Source: Deltaproteobacteria bacterium RIFOXYA12_FULL_61_11
GTDB taxonomy: Bacteria > Bdellovibrionota_F > JAHFAK01 > YA12-FULL-61-11
Assembly (NCBI GenBank): GCA_001799195.1
Contig: MGSU01000117.1
Span: 1-11,040 of the forward strand
Direction of reading: 5' to 3'
DNA length: 11,040 nucleotides
Below, one piece after another: positions 1 to 8,850 of this stretch (the stretch's first letter is position 1; every line of letters starts with the position of its first letter). The notes below the pieces were generated by a model. It did no database searches and was not told where the DNA came from. It worked only from the letters and a program-made list of their open reading frames with translations. Both the position numbers and the translations under genes were made by a program.

Positions 1-1114
1 CGAACGGACAGTCGAGGTCGCCGATGCCGAGGGTGCTGCCGATCACCGAGAGCCCGTCATCACCAGGCAGACCCTGAAGACCGAGGGCGCCGGTGGCACC
101 GGTCTCGCCTATCAGACCCTGTGGGCCGAGGGCTCCGGTGGCTCCGGTCTCGCCTGTCAGACCCTGCGGGCCGATGGCGCCGGTAGCACCGGTCTCGCCC
201 ATCAGACCCTGAAGACCGATGGCACCGGTAGCACCGGTTTCGCCAATCAGACCCTGAGGGCCGATGGCACCGGTAGCTCCGGTTTCGCCCATCAGGCCCT
301 GAAGACCGATGGCACCGGTAGCTCCGGTTTCGCCCATCAGGCCCTGAAGACCGATGGCACCGGTAGCTCCGGTCTCGCCTGCCAGACCCTGAGGGCCGAT
401 GGCGCCGGTAGCACCGATTTTGCCCATCAGACCCTGAAGGCCGATGGCGCCTGTGGCACCGGTTTCGCCTGTCAGACCCTGAGGGCCGATGGCGCCGGTA
501 GCACCGGTTTCGCCGAGCAGACCTTGCGGGCCGATGGCGCCGGTAGCTCCGGTCTCGCCCATCAGACCCTGTGGGCCGAGGGCTCCGGTGGTGCCGGTCT
601 CGCCCATCAGACCCTGAAAGCCCATGGCGCCAATGGCGCCGGTCTCGCCCTGCGGACCAGCAGTTCCCGTCAAGCCGTCAACGCCCGTCAAGCCGGGCTC
701 GCCGTTGCAGACGTAATCGACTCCGGTCGCGGAGGTATAAGCGACGCCGCCATTGGCGCAGTTATCCCCTGGAGCTTCGATGGTGCTGGCGACGGACTCA
801 CCGTCCGCACCGGCAGGACCGGTTAGGCCGGTGGGTCCGACCGTCCCCGGTGCGTCGGTGTTGGTATCCGTATCCCCGTCCGTGTCACCGTTGGTGTCGG
901 AATTCGTGTCCGTGTCGGAGCTATCGCTGTTCCCATAGCCGGACTCCCCATATGGCTGTCCGCACGCGGACCAGATCGGGTCACAGGTGGGGTTAGAGCT
1001 CGCAGCCGTGTTGGAGTTTCCTCCGTCCGAAACGCCAAGCTCAATGAGTGACTGTTCGCATGCGGACAGCATGATGAACGCCAGGAATAGCCCACTGAAT
1101 TTGATGGTTTTCAT
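1..1114 (-). CDS. Collagen-like repeat lipoprotein (C-terminus beyond window)
   Basis: This is a probable surface-anchored collagen-like protein. Reading starts at ATG 1114 and stays open for 371 codons to the left edge, so the C-terminus is missing. The N-terminus is a lipoprotein signal peptide with lipobox LSAC (Cys19). An Asp/Thr/Asn-rich linker follows (about residues 65-88, DTD and DTN repeats). A short Gly-X-Y run (90-106) leads into a Cys-containing module with NCANGG (118-123) and YVCNG (134-138). A long Gly-X-Y tract covers about 139-357, built from a repeated 15-residue unit of the type GETGATGAIGPQGLM. The last visible residues, GDLDCPF, look like the start of another Cys module. 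Glu/Thr-rich triplets with few prolines fit a bacterial collagen that folds without hydroxyproline. An SD-like GGGAG lies 9 nt upstream of the start. Lipoprotein and collagen calls are firm; the biological role (adhesion, surface filament) is unknown. Confidence 0.85.
   Translation of the reverse strand, partial: MKTIKFSGLFLAFIMLSACEQSLIELGVSDGGNSNTAASSNPTCDPIWSACGQPYGESGYGNSDSSDTDTNSDTNGDTDGDTDTNTDAPGTVGPTGLTGPAGADGESVASTIEAPGDNCANGGVAYTSATGVDYVCNGEPGLTGVDGLTGTAGPQGETGAIGAMGFQGLMGETGTTGALGPQGLMGETGATGAIGPQGLLGETGATGAIGPQGLTGETGATGAIGLQGLMGKIGATGAIGPQGLAGETGATGAIGLQGLMGETGATGAIGLQGLMGETGATGAIGPQGLIGETGATGAIGLQGLMGETGATGAIGPQGLTGETGATGALGPQGLIGETGATGALGLQGLPGDDGLSVIGSTLGIGDLDCPF
65..660 (-). 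repeat. 45-bp tandem minisatellite encoding collagen triplets
   Basis: About 13 tandem copies of a 45-bp unit lie inside the collagen-like gene. The core cagaccctg recurs every 45 bp, near 110, 155, 200, 245 and so on up to about 605. Each unit encodes five Gly-X-Y triplets. Copies differ by a few substitutions, mostly Pro/Leu, Ile/Leu and Met/Thr/Ile/Ala/Leu swaps at X or Y positions. One unit near 412-424 carries GKIG where the others carry GETG. Frame and glycine spacing hold throughout, so selection acts on the protein while copy number could change by slippage or recombination. Confidence 0.9.
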
Positions 1115-2623: not shown

Positions 2624-4918
2624 CTACTCTTCTGGTAAATAGTCTGCTACGAAAACATCTGCCTTGTAACAAGCCATCCCTGTCTTTGTCCGTGTCGCCT
2701 TCAACTCTCCACTTTTGCCATCAAAAAAATTAACAGTGGGCGAACACCAATCATTTAATTTACAATCATCATCCTTCGGTTTGGGCATCACTAAATACCC
2801 ATTGGGTAGATTGCTGATAGACTTTACTTTGTCGAGTTTTGAAATAACACTAAAGGTATTTTTATTCTTGTCATACAGGTAAACTCCCTGGGTTGCAGTT
2901 AATAGAAGTTTGTCAGGATTATTGAAAAAAGCAGAAAGATCATGGCCATTGTCGGTGCCACTATAGGGCGAAAAGGATTTCCTCAGCTTCTCAGAAAGAG
3001 TAGGTTTTTCTCTGGTTCCTTCAACTTTATAGGCCAGCAAGTCGTCTTGCGCTAATACCCAAAGCCTTTCCCTAACAGGGTCCCATACAACACCATGTGG
3101 AGCCGTAAGAGTTATTTCTAAGGGAGCGCTGGTATCGGATTTGGTATTGTAAATTCTTAGCCAGTTGCCATGCGTGGCTACTATGGCGACATTTCCATTT
3201 TCAAGAAGTTCAATTGCATGAGGATAGGCACCCGCGCCCACATTCCGAGCCCATAGCTTTTGGCCCTTTGTTCCTCCCTTGTACCTGGCAATAATAGCCA
3301 TTTGGCCACCGACTGCTACGATTACCTGGGTCGAACCTGTCCAGACAGTACTATTGCGCAATTTCACATCCATGGGGTCACCTTGGGGGGCGCCATTAGT
3401 CCAATTGTCTATTTCTTTTTTGTTCTCGTTATCAAACCCTAGTTTTTCCTCGGGAGCCCATTCCCATTTCAGCGCATTTGCATTATTCCAATCGGATGCA
3501 TTTGCATCATACACTTCAATCTTATTGGAAGCGTTGTTGGTACAGGCAATCAGGCAATTTTCTGGATTTTTGCAAAAATCGTTTACGTCAGATAGCTTTA
3601 CGCTAAAAACATTCTTGTCCTTCGTTCCTGTAAGACTCCAAAAGTTATCGGATGTCGGGGAATAATGAAGGTTCTGTGCTGTTTCCAATGCCCAGTGGTA
3701 ATCATTTTCCAATTTAGATGTGGTTTTTCGGAATAAATAATAATAACGTTTTCCCGCTACGAGTTTCTTTCCTGTAAACCAATATTTGTGGACACCATTT
3801 ATAATACGGGAAAACCCTCCTTGGATATCATTTTGATTTATAACATACCCTTCATAAGGTAAGAATGTTTTTGTGTTGGCATCCACTTGGAGCTTATTTG
3901 TGGCTACATCCAGTTTCCAGCGAAACACGCGCCCCTTCGGTGAACCCTCTTTCCACTCGCCAGTGATAAAACTTGGCGGGGTAGTGCTGCTGTCTAAGGA
4001 CATCCATGAAAATCTTATTGGCGAATCTTTAGCGCCAGCGTCATTGGAGATACCGTATACGTATTTGTTAACCTGGGGAATAATATACTTGAAGTCATAA
4101 GCAAACGCTTTTTCGCCAACAATGCCAATGTTACTGTCATGGCCGGACGAGGTGGTATCTGCTTCCATCATTGCCTTAATGTCAAATACCCGAAATCCCG
4201 AATTAGTATCGACGACATACAGGTAATTACCCACCCAGGAAATTCCTCCAGCATTGATTGGTACACTCTTGAAATTAGGATTTCCATTGGTATCTGTATA
4301 GGGCTCAACAAGGAGGGTGTGTCTGTATTTGATGTGGTCCATATCCGTTACATCAATAAACGTAATTCTCACTCCTCTGTCATCCTCCGCTTCCCATCCA
4401 CACTCCCCACCGTGCCAGCTGACCACCAACAGCTTTCGTCCCGTGCTGGTCGTTCCTGGTTTTGGATAAGCATCGGCAGTCCCAGTGAGTCCTTGAGGTC
4501 TCCAGCAGGAAGCTGTATCATCAGAGTCAAAGTTAAAGCCGATGTGGAATATGGACAGTGGGTTGTTGCTCGGTGGATTTAATGATGAAATCTTTTTTCC
4601 ATCATGGTTTGAATCTGCCAAAATATCTTCAAGCGATTTTTTCTGTATATTAGATTTTGTTTTAAGCTCCTCAATGAGGCTATTCTGCTCATCCCACGTG
4701 GCCTCATCTTTATAGGTGAAGGAGTTATCAATAGTAACAGCCGCCATCGCTTTTCCTTCATTGGAATTTTCTGGTGGTGTCGGTTCTACATCATTATTTA
4801 CCGCGGCATCGAGTTGTAGTGGGTCGTTGTTATTTTCGCTATCTCCGCAACCGAAACTCATTTGAAACACTAGCAGTAAAGAAGCAACTCCAGAAAAATG
4901 CATTTTACTCGAGAACAT
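2624..4918 (-). CDS. Two-module propeller-like lipoprotein (DUF6528 C-terminal)
   Basis: A 764-residue predicted lipoprotein and the second gene of an operon. The signal peptide ends in a non-canonical lipobox, SFGC (Cys24). A low-complexity Asn/Asp/Pro-rich tether covers about 25-55, with seven Asn at 29-31, 41, 42, 51 and 53. Residues about 120-450 resemble a module of uncharacterised secreted actinobacterial proteins (DTASCWRPQGLTGTADA, GVRITFIDV, GNYLYVVDTNSGFRVFD, FSWMSLD). Residues about 454-732 match DUF6528, a probable beta-propeller family: IEVYDANASDW, KWEWAP, GAYPHAIELLENGNVAIV, APHGVVWDPVRERLWVL, NGHDL, KVKSIS. No catalytic motif is visible, so binding or scaffolding is more likely than enzymatic activity. 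GGAG lies 5 nt before the start and its SD abuts the stop codon of the peptidase gene upstream, so the two are probably co-transcribed and may be coupled. Codon use is AT-rich. The family matches are from memory of motifs, not a search. Confidence 0.8.
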   Translation of the reverse strand: MFSSKMHFSGVASLLLVFQMSFGCGDSENNNDPLQLDAAVNNDVEPTPPENSNEGKAMAAVTIDNSFTYKDEATWDEQNSLIEELKTKSNIQKKSLEDILADSNHDGKKISSLNPPSNNPLSIFHIGFNFDSDDTASCWRPQGLTGTADAYPKPGTTSTGRKLLVVSWHGGECGWEAEDDRGVRITFIDVTDMDHIKYRHTLLVEPYTDTNGNPNFKSVPINAGGISWVGNYLYVVDTNSGFRVFDIKAMMEADTTSSGHDSNIGIVGEKAFAYDFKYIIPQVNKYVYGISNDAGAKDSPIRFSWMSLDSSTTPPSFITGEWKEGSPKGRVFRWKLDVATNKLQVDANTKTFLPYEGYVINQNDIQGGFSRIINGVHKYWFTGKKLVAGKRYYYLFRKTTSKLENDYHWALETAQNLHYSPTSDNFWSLTGTKDKNVFSVKLSDVNDFCKNPENCLIACTNNASNKIEVYDANASDWNNANALKWEWAPEEKLGFDNENKKEIDNWTNGAPQGDPMDVKLRNSTVWTGSTQVIVAVGGQMAIIARYKGGTKGQKLWARNVGAGAYPHAIELLENGNVAIVATHGNWLRIYNTKSDTSAPLEITLTAPHGVVWDPVRERLWVLAQDDLLAYKVEGTREKPTLSEKLRKSFSPYSGTDNGHDLSAFFNNPDKLLLTATQGVYLYDKNKNTFSVISKLDKVKSISNLPNGYLVMPKPKDDDCKLNDWCSPTVNFFDGKSGELKATRTKTGMACYKADVFVADYLPEE

Positions 4919-4923
4919 AATTT

Positions 4924-4928
4924 CTCCT
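4924..4928 (-). promoter_or_regulatory. Ribosome binding site abutting upstream stop codon
   Basis: AGGAG, 5 nt before ATG 4918, lies directly beside the TAA (4929-4931) of the peptidase gene. A ribosome ending the first gene would be positioned at the second, which supports linked expression of the pair. Confidence 0.65.
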
Positions 4929-7016
4929 TTAAGGGGTAATAAATTCGCGCAGGTTAATTGCTTTTAAATCACCAAAGGCCTGATTATTAAATACGCTCAC
5001 ATGGGAGCCATTTACTTGGAGATAAAGCTTCTCGTAAAGCTCATTCAGCGACATATCGGGTTTGGATTCCATCATAGTAACCATGGAATAAGCAAATTTA
5101 TCGGTGAGCCAGGCATCCAGTTCATGGCTATAATTATCCGCTAGAGAGTTCTCCCAGGGATTTGCACCCGCAAATAAAATAACACCCGGCGCATTCAGGT
5201 TCTCACCCATGATTCCGCCAAAACAAGTTTCAACTTCAATGAACATCCGTCGATACATTTTATTGTCGTACATCGTATTTAGAGTTTCCGTAAAATCTTG
5301 CGGATCAAGAATGGATTGATTGAAATCGGCACCATTGGCCTCGCCATGGCCCACAATGAAAAATAAGATATTATCGCTTTCTTTGGATTTCAGTACCTTA
5401 GACAAATAGTCGCTGCTTTTTCCCGAAAGAATATCGTACAGATCTTGCGGCGCTAGGTTGATGGGATTGTAGTCGACCTCGACATTTTGGTACAGATTGG
5501 GGCCGCCCACACTATTATAAATTTCTCCGGGTTTAGGGTTTAATTGATTATTAGCAAGATCATCGTTAATCATTAAAATAATTTTATCGTCGGTAAGACC
5601 ATTTTTTTTCAAACGTGAATACACAGCCAAGGCATCGGCTTGATGACGATAGTTGTCCCAATCCGTCGAGGTGGAGAGGATAATGGCCCACAAGCCCGTT
5701 TTTGCTGGAGGATTGAAAACGGTTCCAGTACTGGATAGATCCTGTTTTTTTCCCTGAGACGCGATGGTATTAAAGATGGAGAGATCCGATGAAATAGTGC
5801 CAGCCTTATTGTAGCCCGAATAAATAAACTCCTGACAAATATATTGATGACCAATAATTTTCCAAAGGCAATAGGTCGACGACGTGACGTCCGTCTGCTT
5901 TTGGGAATCAAAATCAAGGGGTCCAGTGGCGCCGGTAATGTCGGGCTCTTCACCCTTTTGTAAAAGCGTGAGGGTTTCACGGACACCGTCGGCATCCCAG
6001 ATTGTTTTTTCCCCTCTTCCGGAAACAACCTTAATCATCGCGTCCGCAAGGTCTTCGCCTCCTTTTCCATCAGAACGTTGTAACCCATAAGCTATCAATA
6101 GAACGGCGTCGTAGAGATTTGCGGCATACGCATAATCGGAAAAAGGATCTATGCCGAATTTTTTGATATAGGCATAACCAAAACCGCTGAGAGGATCAAA
6201 TGTGAGTCCAATGCCCTCGATGTTTTCAGCGTCAGCCCCAAGCGTGGCAGGAATAGAATTAATCACGCCACCGTCGGTAAAAAGTAGTTTTGTATTTCCC
6301 CTAAGCTTTTTCATGTACTTGATCATGCAGATTGCCGTATTGAAATCGGAAGGTGCAGCGAACAGAACCTCTGGGTTGCCTAAAAGAGCCTCGACCATGG
6401 AGTCTTCGCAACTTGTTTTGCTCTGGTCGTATCGCACAATACCTGTTGGCTTTATGCTCAGTTCAGTCGTAAAAAAACCGAACCAGTCAAAAAAAGTCGC
6501 TCCATAAGAGTCGTCAGAGACAATGAGTGCTGCTGTGTGAAAATTTTTCTGGCTTGCGGTAAGCAGCAAACTCCGCATCTGGGCAATGTCCGACTCGACG
6601 GTGCGCCAGATGAATTTTTTTCCGGCAAAGGCTCTGAAAATATCTGCTGATGTGGCCGCTGGACTTATCAATACCTTTTTCTTTTTGATAAAATCTGGAG
6701 CAATGTTGAACATGATCGAAGAGCTGTCAGGTCCAATGACCGCCACAATTGAAGGATCATCAAGCAACCTTTGGGCAGCAGCTTTAGCATCTTCTTTGCC
6801 GAGATCAGCATAGACAAATTCGATGTTTTTTCCGTTAATCCCTCCAGCAGCGTCGATATTTTCTTGCGCCCATGTCAAAGAATTTTGCCAGCCTGATCCA
6901 GTAGAGTTCTCGCTAGACATGTATAAAATGACACCGATTTTAATGGCTTCTCGTTCGTCAGGTTGGCAGCCGAATAGCAGCGCGGTAAAAAGAATTGCAG
7001 CGCAAAACAATGGCAT
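4929..7016 (-). CDS. Lipoprotein fusing periplasmic binding domain to legumain-like (C13) peptidase
   Basis: A 695-residue predicted lipoprotein with two domains. The signal peptide ends in lipobox LFGC (Cys17). Residues about 25-400 are a type 1 periplasmic binding domain of the branched-chain amino acid class (IKIGVILYMS, NIDAAGGINGK, AVIGPDSSS, VLISPAATSAD, SDDSYGATF). Residues about 440-695 are a legumain-like C13 caspase-fold peptidase, with motifs WAIILSTSTDWDNYRHQAD, IILMINDDLANNQLNPKPG, FFIVGHGE and FIEVETCFGGIM. The catalytic pair is His557 and Cys598, 41 residues apart as in human legumain (His148/Cys189). Asn455 matches legumain Asn42. Arg457, Glu596 and Asp639 match the S1 pocket residues Arg44, Glu187 and Asp231, so cleavage after Asn is inferred. 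The C-terminal autoinhibitory domain of animal legumain is absent, and the N-terminal sensor may replace its control. ATG 7016 has no clear SD and no basic n-region. An in-frame extension upstream encodes Lys/Arg residues but lacks an ATG, GTG or TTG. Confidence 0.88.
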   Translation of the reverse strand: MPLFCAAILFTALLFGCQPDEREAIKIGVILYMSSENSTGSGWQNSLTWAQENIDAAGGINGKNIEFVYADLGKEDAKAAAQRLLDDPSIVAVIGPDSSSIMFNIAPDFIKKKKVLISPAATSADIFRAFAGKKFIWRTVESDIAQMRSLLLTASQKNFHTAALIVSDDSYGATFFDWFGFFTTELSIKPTGIVRYDQSKTSCEDSMVEALLGNPEVLFAAPSDFNTAICMIKYMKKLRGNTKLLFTDGGVINSIPATLGADAENIEGIGLTFDPLSGFGYAYIKKFGIDPFSDYAYAANLYDAVLLIAYGLQRSDGKGGEDLADAMIKVVSGRGEKTIWDADGVRETLTLLQKGEEPDITGATGPLDFDSQKQTDVTSSTYCLWKIIGHQYICQEFIYSGYNKAGTISSDLSIFNTIASQGKKQDLSSTGTVFNPPAKTGLWAIILSTSTDWDNYRHQADALAVYSRLKKNGLTDDKIILMINDDLANNQLNPKPGEIYNSVGGPNLYQNVEVDYNPINLAPQDLYDILSGKSSDYLSKVLKSKESDNILFFIVGHGEANGADFNQSILDPQDFTETLNTMYDNKMYRRMFIEVETCFGGIMGENLNAPGVILFAGANPWENSLADNYSHELDAWLTDKFAYSMVTMMESKPDMSLNELYEKLYLQVNGSHVSVFNNQAFGDLKAINLREFITP

Positions 7017-7082
7017 TAAGAAAAGCGGTTTACTTATTGATCTGTGGTAAATGGTTTTTTTCCAATAAAAAACAGGAACATA

Positions 7083-7111
7083 ACTTTACCTTGTTTGAAC
7101 TCGCCCGTAAA
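7083..7111 (-). promoter_or_regulatory. Weak candidate sigma70-type promoter of peptidase operon
   Basis: On the minus strand TTTACG (7106-7111) is followed 17 nt later by TAAAGT (7083-7088). Each hexamer matches the consensus at four of six bases with ideal spacing, about 65 bp upstream of the peptidase start. An AT-rich tract just upstream (7112-7130) could act as an UP-like element. Bacterial promoters of this strength are common by chance. Confidence 0.22.
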
Positions 7112-7353
7112 GATATATTTTCGAATTAAGTGGGGGTACGCGGGTGTCGAACGGAACCTCCTATCTCCTGTTAACCCCAGATCAAAATCGCTGTTAACCA
7201 GAGAAAGTGGCTCTCAGGCCATTCTCGGCTCTTTGAACCCCAGCGAGGAAGGTCCTGGTGCGTCTTCTTTCCGGGGTAGCGCTGCTTTGCTTGTCGTTAA
7301 ATCGACCCGATGGTACCCTTGCCGGCATGAAGAGGGTGGTGGTGAGGACTGCG

Positions 7354-7380
7354 TGTGGGTACTGTGGGTACTGTGGGTAC
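7354..7380. repeat. Three tandem copies of a 9-bp unit
   Basis: tgtgggtac occurs three times in exact tandem (7354-7362, 7363-7371, 7372-7380). On the minus strand, in one frame, it would read as repeated Val-Pro-Thr, but no convincing gene runs through it. It is a small slippage-prone microsatellite. Confidence 0.9.
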
Positions 7381-7401
7381 TGCGTGGAAGCCGAGTCCGG
7401 C

Positions 7402-7423
7402 TTTTGATTCTATTTTGATTCTA
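7402..7423. repeat. Perfect 11-bp tandem duplication
   Basis: ttttgattcta is present twice back to back (7402-7412 and 7413-7423). It marks the return from GC-rich to AT-rich DNA just before the small membrane ORF. Confidence 0.9.
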
Positions 7424-7480
7424 ATTCCAGGTATGGGGCCCATAGAATAATGAATAATTCGATTTGTAATAACGAAAACA

Positions 7481-7735
7481 ATGAAAAAGATGAATGCAAA
7501 CAGAAATAAAAATGAGGGGTCACCTATTGCATTCTGTGTGACTTCCCATGCAATTACTTTTATCATGTGCGCAATTTTTTCGTCAATGCAACTATGGTTA
7601 TTTGTAGGTCTTATCGAAATTTATAATTTAACCCAGAGTAGTTATTCAATAATAATTATTTTGCTTATATTCATTTTATCGGGATGTATGTATATTAAAT
7701 TATTACCAATCATTAAAAATACATTAAGAAAGTGA
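7481..7735 (+). CDS. Small two-helix membrane protein, hypothetical
   Basis: An 84-residue ORF that I do not recognise. It has a basic, Asn-rich N-terminus and then two hydrophobic stretches, about residues 24-47 (ITFIMCAIFSSMQLWLFVGL) and 54-76 (SIIIILLIFILSGCMYIKLL). It ends in the basic tail IKNTLRK. This pattern fits a small inner-membrane protein with both ends in the cytoplasm. Third codon positions are mostly A or T, like the central operon and unlike the right flank. No SD is visible before ATG 7481 or the internal ATG 7490. An overlapping minus-strand ORF (7297-7566) also has one hydrophobic segment, which weakens the case. It stands alone on the plus strand beside the transposase fragment and may be a decayed passenger of the acquired block. 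Confidence 0.4.
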   Translation: MKKMNANRNKNEGSPIAFCVTSHAITFIMCAIFSSMQLWLFVGLIEIYNLTQSSYSIIIILLIFILSGCMYIKLLPIIKNTLRK

Positions 7736-7903
7736 AAAAAGAGAAGATCACAACTCCATGCCGGAATGGCCTGGGTTGGGGGTGGACCCAAATAACTCAT
7801 CGGAGCCTCTTTCAAACCTTGTAAAATCGTCATAAAAAGTTAAAATAACAATATAGTTAAATCAATTATGACAAGGTGATCGGCGATGACTGTGTTTCGC
7901 GAT

Positions 7904-7918
7904 AACGTACCGTACGTT
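7904..7918. repeat. 15-bp palindrome upstream of transposase fragment
   Basis: AACGTAC-C-GTACGTT is a perfect inverted repeat with 7-bp arms. Short TTTCGC direct repeats lie on either side (7895-7900 and 7917-7922). It is about 80 bp upstream of the transposase-like start and lies where composition turns GC-rich, so it may belong to the terminal region of the insertion sequence. No matching right-end copy is seen in the window. Confidence 0.5.
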
Positions 7919-7996
7919 TCGCACAATTGAGGAGCCCGTCTCCGACTGGTACACAGTACGTTGGCACCAACAGTAGACCAAGAGGGAGGACGGGCC

Positions 7997-8077
7997 ATGG
8001 AGGAGGATAGCGCAGTCGTGACGATCAATGAAGCAAAAATTCGGGAGCATCTGGGAAAGTTAGTGCGGGGATCGGTA
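7997..8077 (+). pseudogene. Truncated N-terminus of an IS256-family-type transposase
   Basis: ATG 7997 is preceded by a strong SD, GGGAGG (7984-7989, 7 nt spacing). It begins a protein whose first 27 residues, including VVTINEAKIREHLGKLVRGS, resemble the start of mutator/IS256-type transposases, where this helix leads into an EETLN-like motif. Here the match stops at codon 27. The downstream sequence has no transposase features (no DDE core), so only the 5' end survives. The reading frame continues by chance to a TGA at 8258-8260, which overlaps the ATG of the next gene by one base. The family call rests on motif memory over a short stretch and could be wrong. The good SD and abrupt loss of similarity favour a deletion or recombination scar. 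Confidence 0.45.
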
Positions 8078-8246
8078 GTGAAAGAGCCCGGTGGTGGAAA
8101 TCTCTTCGATGGGATCTGGCGAGGGCCGGGTCTTGGTAACATGCCCCGGCTATTCTCCACGGCTTCCTTCCCGATAGGTCTTGCATTCCTCCTTTCCCGA
8201 GGGCTATGGTTGCCGTTGTGCTCGGTTCGGCCGAGAAAGGGTGTCT

Positions 8247-8251
8247 GGAGG
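8247..8251 (+). promoter_or_regulatory. Ribosome binding site fixing YqgE start at 8260
   Basis: GGAGG with 8 nt to ATG 8260. It favours this start over the upstream in-frame ATG at 8206, which would add 18 residues not typical of the family. Confidence 0.7.
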
Positions 8252-8259
8252 AAACGCTG

Positions 8260-8850
8260 ATGCTCGAAAATGCCTTCCAAAGCCTGCGCGGCCACCTGAT
8301 CATCGCCATGCCCTCGCTCGAGGACGAGAACTTCCAGCGCACCGTCGTGCTGCTCGCGGAGCACACTCCCGAAGGCGCCTTCGGGGTGATCGTCAATCGG
8401 CCGCTCCACCTCAAGCTCAAGGACCTCTTCCAAAACCAACACCAGGGGTTCGCCATCACGGACGTGGTCTGGTTCGGTGGGCCGGTCGAGCCCCAACGCG
8501 GCCTCTTCCTCCATAATATCCCCTTGGTTCCGATGAGGAACCCCATCACGCTCGAGAACGACCTCTACATCTGCGGCAACCTCGATTCTGTCGAGTATAT
8601 TGCCAACCTGCGGGGAAAGGGGCTCGACCAGGACCAGCACTTCCGCTTCTTCCTCGGGTACTCCGGCTGGGCACCGGGGCAGCTCGAACACGAGTTGCGC
8701 CAGTCCAGTTGGTTGCATTGCAAGGCCACCCGGTCCCTGATTCTCGAAACCACCCCCGAAGACCTCTGGGAGACCGCCATTCGCTCCCTTGGCGTTGCCC
8801 CGGAATCGCTGGTCGACGATCAAGGTTCCGGCGGCCGCGTCCTGCATTGA
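8260..8850 (+). CDS. YqgE/AlgH family protein (UPF0301, DUF179)
   Basis: A 196-residue protein of the widespread YqgE/AlgH family, normally about 185-190 residues, so it is full length. The N-terminus SLRGHLIIAMPSLEDENFQR followed by TVVLLAEHTPEGAFGVIVNR is the family signature. Later motifs are VWFGGPVEPQRGLFLHN and FFLGYSGWAPGQLEHELRQ. The biochemical role of the family is unsettled; AlgH was named from alginate regulation in Pseudomonas. There is no signal peptide, so it is probably cytoplasmic. ATG 8260 has GGAGG 8 nt upstream and overlaps the stop of the reading frame begun by the transposase fragment (TGATG), so transcription or translation could enter from there. A weak TTGCAT (8181) and CTATGG (8204) pair is the only promoter-like sequence nearby. 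The next gene starts 11 bp downstream. Confidence 0.93.
   Translation: MLENAFQSLRGHLIIAMPSLEDENFQRTVVLLAEHTPEGAFGVIVNRPLHLKLKDLFQNQHQGFAITDVVWFGGPVEPQRGLFLHNIPLVPMRNPITLENDLYICGNLDSVEYIANLRGKGLDQDQHFRFFLGYSGWAPGQLEHELRQSSWLHCKATRSLILETTPEDLWETAIRSLGVAPESLVDDQGSGGRVLH

Follow-up and report, generated by a model that had tools for sequence, protein, structure and literature searches.

A bacterial lipoprotein predicted to join a ligand-binding flytrap domain to a legumain-type C13 peptidase domain

The legumain family (asparaginyl endopeptidase; MEROPS C13, PF01650) is known mostly from animals and plants. Studies of legumain deal with the lysosomal, plant and parasite enzymes, which are controlled by pH and by a C-terminal prodomain. 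Plant PALs and GPI transamidase join proteins to another amine. The S1 pocket of legumain consists of Arg44, His45, Ser216 and Asp231 (clan CD review, PMC4357240). Clan CD also offers precedents for ligand activation and for self-inhibition, and one of its proteases, the MARTX CPD (family C80), is switched by a small molecule (PMC4357240). The protein described here may work like the MARTX CPD in being switched by a small molecule, but the MARTX CPD belongs to another family, and its ligand binds the protease domain itself rather than a fused flytrap domain. The initial annotation of the present locus stated that its author knew of no described sensor-protease of such a build. Our own search of the open-licence literature likewise turned up no account of a bacterial legumain carrying a periplasmic binding domain, and the build is apparently undescribed. 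The gene itself is not new to the databases, a Plesiocystis sequence having long been public.

The window, i.e., the whole 11,040-nt stretch of DNA analysed, contains the fusion gene whose features are collected in Table 1. In the 695-residue product, Pfam placed Peripla_BP_6 at residues 25–328 (E 6.8e-23) and Peptidase_C13 (PF01650) at residues 443–684 (E 3.1e-51). The latter match is near full-length, and its score of 175 bits, against a curated cut-off of 22.8, is far above chance. These matches and a structure model bore out the first reading of the protein as a binding domain followed by a C13 domain. An artefactual or chimeric ORF was ruled out, as the full fusion recurs in other genomes at 31–60% identity. 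The model was built with AlphaFold2 from an alignment of eight natural fusion members, and it reached a pLDDT of 83 and a pTM of 0.78, scores that say nothing about how the two domains are placed relative to each other.

Table 1. Positions in the window of the fusion gene, its predicted parts and the gene downstream
Feature	Position	Strand	Basis
PBP-C13 fusion lipoprotein, 695 aa	4929..7016	-	ORF with ATG start, Pfam, PDB alignment, model
Predicted lipoprotein signal peptide, lipobox LFG-Cys17, residues 1-17	6966..7016	-	sequence; Cys aligned in 22/22 members keeping the N-terminus
Type I periplasmic-binding (Venus-flytrap) domain, residues 23-411	5784..6950	-	Pfam, model, alignment
Putative ligand residues Ser99, Thr122, Asp248	binding domain	-	alignment with pocket positions
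Legumain-type C13 peptidase domain, residues 439-695	4932..5702	-	Pfam, PDB alignment, model
Downstream lipoprotein, 764 aa, DUF6528/LVIVD-type match	2624..4918	-	Pfam; AGGAGA ribosome-binding site

The fusion protein is predicted to be a lipoprotein. A lipobox is recognisable in most members of the fusion family, and the lipoprotein assignment made initially is supported, its weak point being an n-region that has no basic residue if read from the ATG at 7016. No clear ribosome-binding site was found before that ATG. The true start may be a non-standard codon, for instance ATT, located slightly upstream. The frame is open upstream of the ATG (7017–7085, minus strand), where it encodes basic residues (HRSISKPLFL), and it contains no ATG, GTG or TTG.

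Alignment of the C13 domain with human legumain gave the pairs Asn455/42, Arg457/44, His458/45, His557/148, Glu596/187, Cys598/189, Ser624/216 and Asp639/231. The catalytic Asn-His-Cys set (N455, H557, C598) is complete, as is the S1 set of the clan CD review (R457, H458, S624, D639), and E596 is the equivalent of Glu187. The spacing between His and Cys is 41 in the window protein and in human legumain alike. The initial annotation had named the same three catalytic residues, had listed Arg457, Glu596 and Asp639 as S1 residues and had reported the spacing; the alignment confirmed each of these and added His458 and Ser624 to the S1 list. When the PDB sequences were searched, the C-terminal half matched legumain first (E 8e-38), GPI transamidase next, and then plant legumains and ligases. 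In the model, the C13 domain matches the caspase/haemoglobinase fold, residues 439–695 superposing on residues 26–286 of human legumain with Z 35 and an rmsd of 1.9 Å over 254 aligned residues at 31% identity (VIA-align 2). This superposition agrees with the annotation's pairing of His557 with Cys598 in one active site, and the Pfam match agrees with its assignment of residues 440–695 to a peptidase. The legumain fold, the active site and the predicted Asn/Asp specificity appear well supported, with several independent tests of sequence and model behind them.

The catalytic subunit of GPI transamidase (GPI8/PIG-K) is likewise a membrane-linked member of the C13 family, with Z 33.8 to the model, but its sequence score is below that of legumain (148 vs 196 bits) and it is without a binding domain. 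The fusion protein might be a transpeptidase or ligase whose C13 domain joins surface proteins at Asx to another amine, with the binding domain selecting the acceptor or the protein. The PALs and GPI transamidase do have the same fold (Z 33), and a lipoprotein anchor would put the enzyme where such anchoring happens. However, the closest match in both sequence and fold is the animal hydrolase legumain, and Gly556, which precedes the catalytic His, takes the place of human Asp147; we regard the ligase role as decidedly improbable. Compared with legumain, the fusion protein lacks two C-terminal parts of prolegumain, its activation peptide and its LSAM domain, the chain stopping where the legumain peptidase domain ends. 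It has instead an N-terminal ligand-binding domain, and it is bacterial and carries a predicted lipid anchor.

The N-terminal half matched branched-chain amino-acid binding proteins in the PDB sequence search, and both the two-lobed flytrap fold and a PF13458 match are present there. Model residues 23–395 fit 4mlc (Z 33.5) and the Leu complex 4q6b (Z about 33), and residues 23–411 fit the flytraps of the GABA-B receptor with Z 34 (VIA-align 2). The modelled flytrap fold is shared as a whole with the branched-chain amino acid binding proteins (PF13458; 4mlc/4q6b, LivK, LivJ), and the putative pocket positions align with theirs, but here the flytrap is joined to a protease, and no transporter genes were found beside the fusion gene. 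The three putative ligand residues align with positions that bind the alpha-amino and carboxylate groups in type I amino-acid binding proteins, Ser99 and Thr122 with positions that hold the amino acid in LivJ-type proteins. At the position aligned with Asp248, the Anabaena binding protein has Asp in the sequence group of 4nv3, its N280D mutant, and Asn in 4obb, its complex with a 3-methyl-2-keto acid; the letter that differs between the two is presumably residue 280. The comparison points to an alpha-amino ligand, and an alpha-amino acid or a close relative can fairly be considered the most likely ligand of the window protein. Asp248 is kept in 22 of the 23 aligned members. Ligands may differ across the family, since Ser99 is conserved in only 17 members and Thr122 in only 20. 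A further pair of residues, Cys203 and Cys230, is present in 20 of the 23 members, and both are lost in the other three. Joint presence and loss of this kind fits an extracytoplasmic disulfide, which the two residues probably form.

GTDB genome contigs were scanned with the window protein as the sole query, which yielded seven full-length relatives, and whole-genome searches added further members. At least 25 fusion genes were seen, with hosts mostly among Myxococcota and other former Deltaproteobacteria; 23 were aligned, and the remaining two, assessed through their motifs and HMM matches, carry the same motifs. In Myxococcota, the phylum of Plesiocystis pacifica (whose cultured strain SIR-1 carries the fusion at L009), there were 17 fusion genes in 12 of 377 genomes, and every near-full-length C13 match of at least 60 bits was a fusion. 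Fusions were also present in three of 395 genomes sampled from the phylum of locus L008 and in three of 195 from the phylum of locus L005. Of 386 genomes taken as relatives of the one that contains the window, none but that genome itself gave a fusion. In the sampled genomes, then, legumain-type C13 proteins are rare in bacteria, as had been proposed initially, and occur with the binding domain wherever sampled. Three more Myxococcota C13 matches (80–96 bits) span the second half of the profile alone. The two of these that can be read cleanly, at L112 (3761–5188, minus strand) and L114 (5212–7041, minus strand), have Ser in place of Glu two residues before the Cys, and they form a distinct bacterial C13 group, marked by a motif of the SSC/SAC-SGG type and by an N-terminal half that is hydrophobic. 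L112, L114 and L119 have PF01650 and the His/Cys pair in common with the fusion, but they lack the NYRH motif and the binding domain, and SSC/SAC replaces E-x-C at the catalytic Cys.

Residues N455, Y456, R457, H458, H557, E596 and S624 are invariant in all 23 aligned members. C598 and D639 are each kept in 22, C598 being lost in L098 and D639 being replaced by Asn in L007. A pseudoenzyme was ruled out for the window copy, the Cys being lost in L098 alone. In L098 (217–2160, minus strand) an internal deletion removes the catalytic Cys region and leaves NYRH and the His; the gene adjoins an intact Bmp gene, its host genome has two further intact fusion copies, and its product is possibly a pseudoprotease. 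The two profile matches are separated by 30–41 residues in 20 of the 23 members and by 53 at most. After the C13 domain there are 0 to 19 residues in all 23, which leaves no room for an LSAM. Patristic distances for the two domains correlate (r 0.75, Mantel p 5e-4): the domains have evolved together, although an old, vertically inherited fusion alone would give such a correlation too, and the near-constant linker tells more about geometry than the tree correlation does.

We propose, giving the proposal an even chance, that the fusion is a lipid-anchored, extracytoplasmic, Asn/Asp-specific legumain-type cysteine protease controlled by its ligand-binding flytrap domain. The flytrap would bind a small molecule, for which an alpha-amino acid or close relative is the likeliest candidate, and closure of the flytrap would be relayed to the protease through the short linker of near-constant length. 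The binding domain would stand in for the inhibitory domain at the C-terminus by which eukaryotic legumain is controlled. The substrates would likely be other surface or periplasmic proteins, and the neighbouring lipoproteins are candidate partners or substrates. Computation supports the two domains, the legumain fold, the full active site and S1 pocket, export, a conserved fusion and the lack of an LSAM; the amino-acid ligand, the gating and the substrate we infer, the gating from the architecture. Several features add to the plausibility of a gating of the protease by ligand binding, as proposed initially: conservation of the fusion, a linker that hardly varies in length, the missing C-terminal inhibitory domain, the amino-acid-type pocket residues and, in some loci, a co-expressed second binding protein.

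That second protein is a Bmp/PnrA-type lipoprotein, whose gene lies directly upstream of the fusion in seven loci (L003, L004, L005, L007, L098, L142 and a second copy in the window's own genome). In L003, L004, L005 and the own-genome copy the two genes overlap by 4 bp, start and stop sharing ATGA. The upstream position in seven loci suggests a joint action of the Bmp lipoprotein and the fusion's binding domain, in that subgroup at least. The two might sense as a heterodimer, in the manner of the two GABA-B receptor flytraps, and the protease would then deliver the pair's output. The overlaps favour such pairing, as do a further Bmp gene beside a PBP fragment (G005:C415) and the fit of the modelled binding domain to GABA-B flytraps. 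A fold match to GABA-B is no proof of dimerisation, however, and most fusion loci, the window's included, have no adjacent Bmp gene; heterodimer sensing seems unlikely to us. In the genome of L140 an NtrC-like sigma-54 response regulator is encoded (4688–6310, plus strand) just upstream of the Bmp/PBP-C13 pair.

Control by the flytrap also has to be weighed against another use of the binding domain, in which it would hold the substrate peptide or capture an amino acid or peptide product without any switching, the whole serving surface protein digestion. The flytrap has the fold of binding proteins that serve ABC transporters, and a TonB-dependent receptor (L100) and an S41 protease (L097) are among the neighbours of the fusion. 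Many host lineages include predatory or degradative members. On the other side, no ABC permease or ATPase gene was found among the window genes (Pfam) or the scanned neighbours of fusion loci, and strict Asx specificity fits processing more than bulk digestion. Scavenging or recruitment of this kind is, we think, somewhat unlikely. Beside the fusion gene, L007 (1–4695) and L110 (1–5358) encode large lipoproteins that are related, have a CLDLDGN-type start, match a GON domain weakly and are possible partners or substrates of the fusion protein.

In the window itself, the gene for the 764-residue lipoprotein begins 10 bp past the fusion gene and is co-oriented with it. The product is probably a beta propeller; a single-sequence structure model gave a pLDDT of 32 and no usable fold. 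A propeller as universal partner was ruled out, since it adjoins the fusion only in this genome's two copies, and distant homologues in two other genomes (G003 and G359) are located away from the fusion gene. The second copy is spread over two contigs, C38 stopping within the first 150 codons and C185 starting near residue 193, and the contig break probably divides one gene. On C38 the Bmp gene precedes it; on C185 a propeller homologue, its frame apparently broken, follows it. Positions 3000–8000 of the window, which contain the fusion gene and its propeller neighbour, have 42–45% GC between flanks of 55–67%, and the second copy has 63%. The fusion of L008 is 60% identical to the window copy, and the two group together in all trees. 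Judging by the low-GC stretch, as against the second copy, and by the grouping with L008, the window copy probably arrived by horizontal transfer from a source nearer to L008.

Scans for promoters and terminators gave nothing above shuffled expectation, and Rfam gave no RNA element match in the window. No PADLOC match spoke for a role in anti-phage defence, and no match in plasmids for a plasmid-borne location. Elsewhere in the window, a lipoprotein-like ORF (2–1114, minus strand) runs beyond the window edge and contains a 45-bp repeat in 13 copies (68–650) that gives rise to a collagen-like Gly-X-Y stretch, and an AlgH/YqgE family protein (DUF179) is encoded at 8206–8850 (plus strand).

In its widest form, the proposal would make these proteins a counterpart of class C receptors with proteolysis as the output. 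Paired surface flytrap lipoproteins would respond to an amino acid by switching a legumain-type protease, which would cut or join surface proteins at Asn, and the eukaryotic legumain/GPI8 peptidase might have originated close to the deltaproteobacterial lineage. We offer this as speculation with a low chance of being right. More generally, small molecules may switch a legumain-type protease in some bacteria. A bacterial set with the full Asn pocket, and with a binding domain in place of the prodomain, would represent a different control of the same enzyme, and the fusion could provide a ligand-switchable, Asn-specific protease tool. The set of bacterial fusions also bears on where eukaryotic legumain came from.
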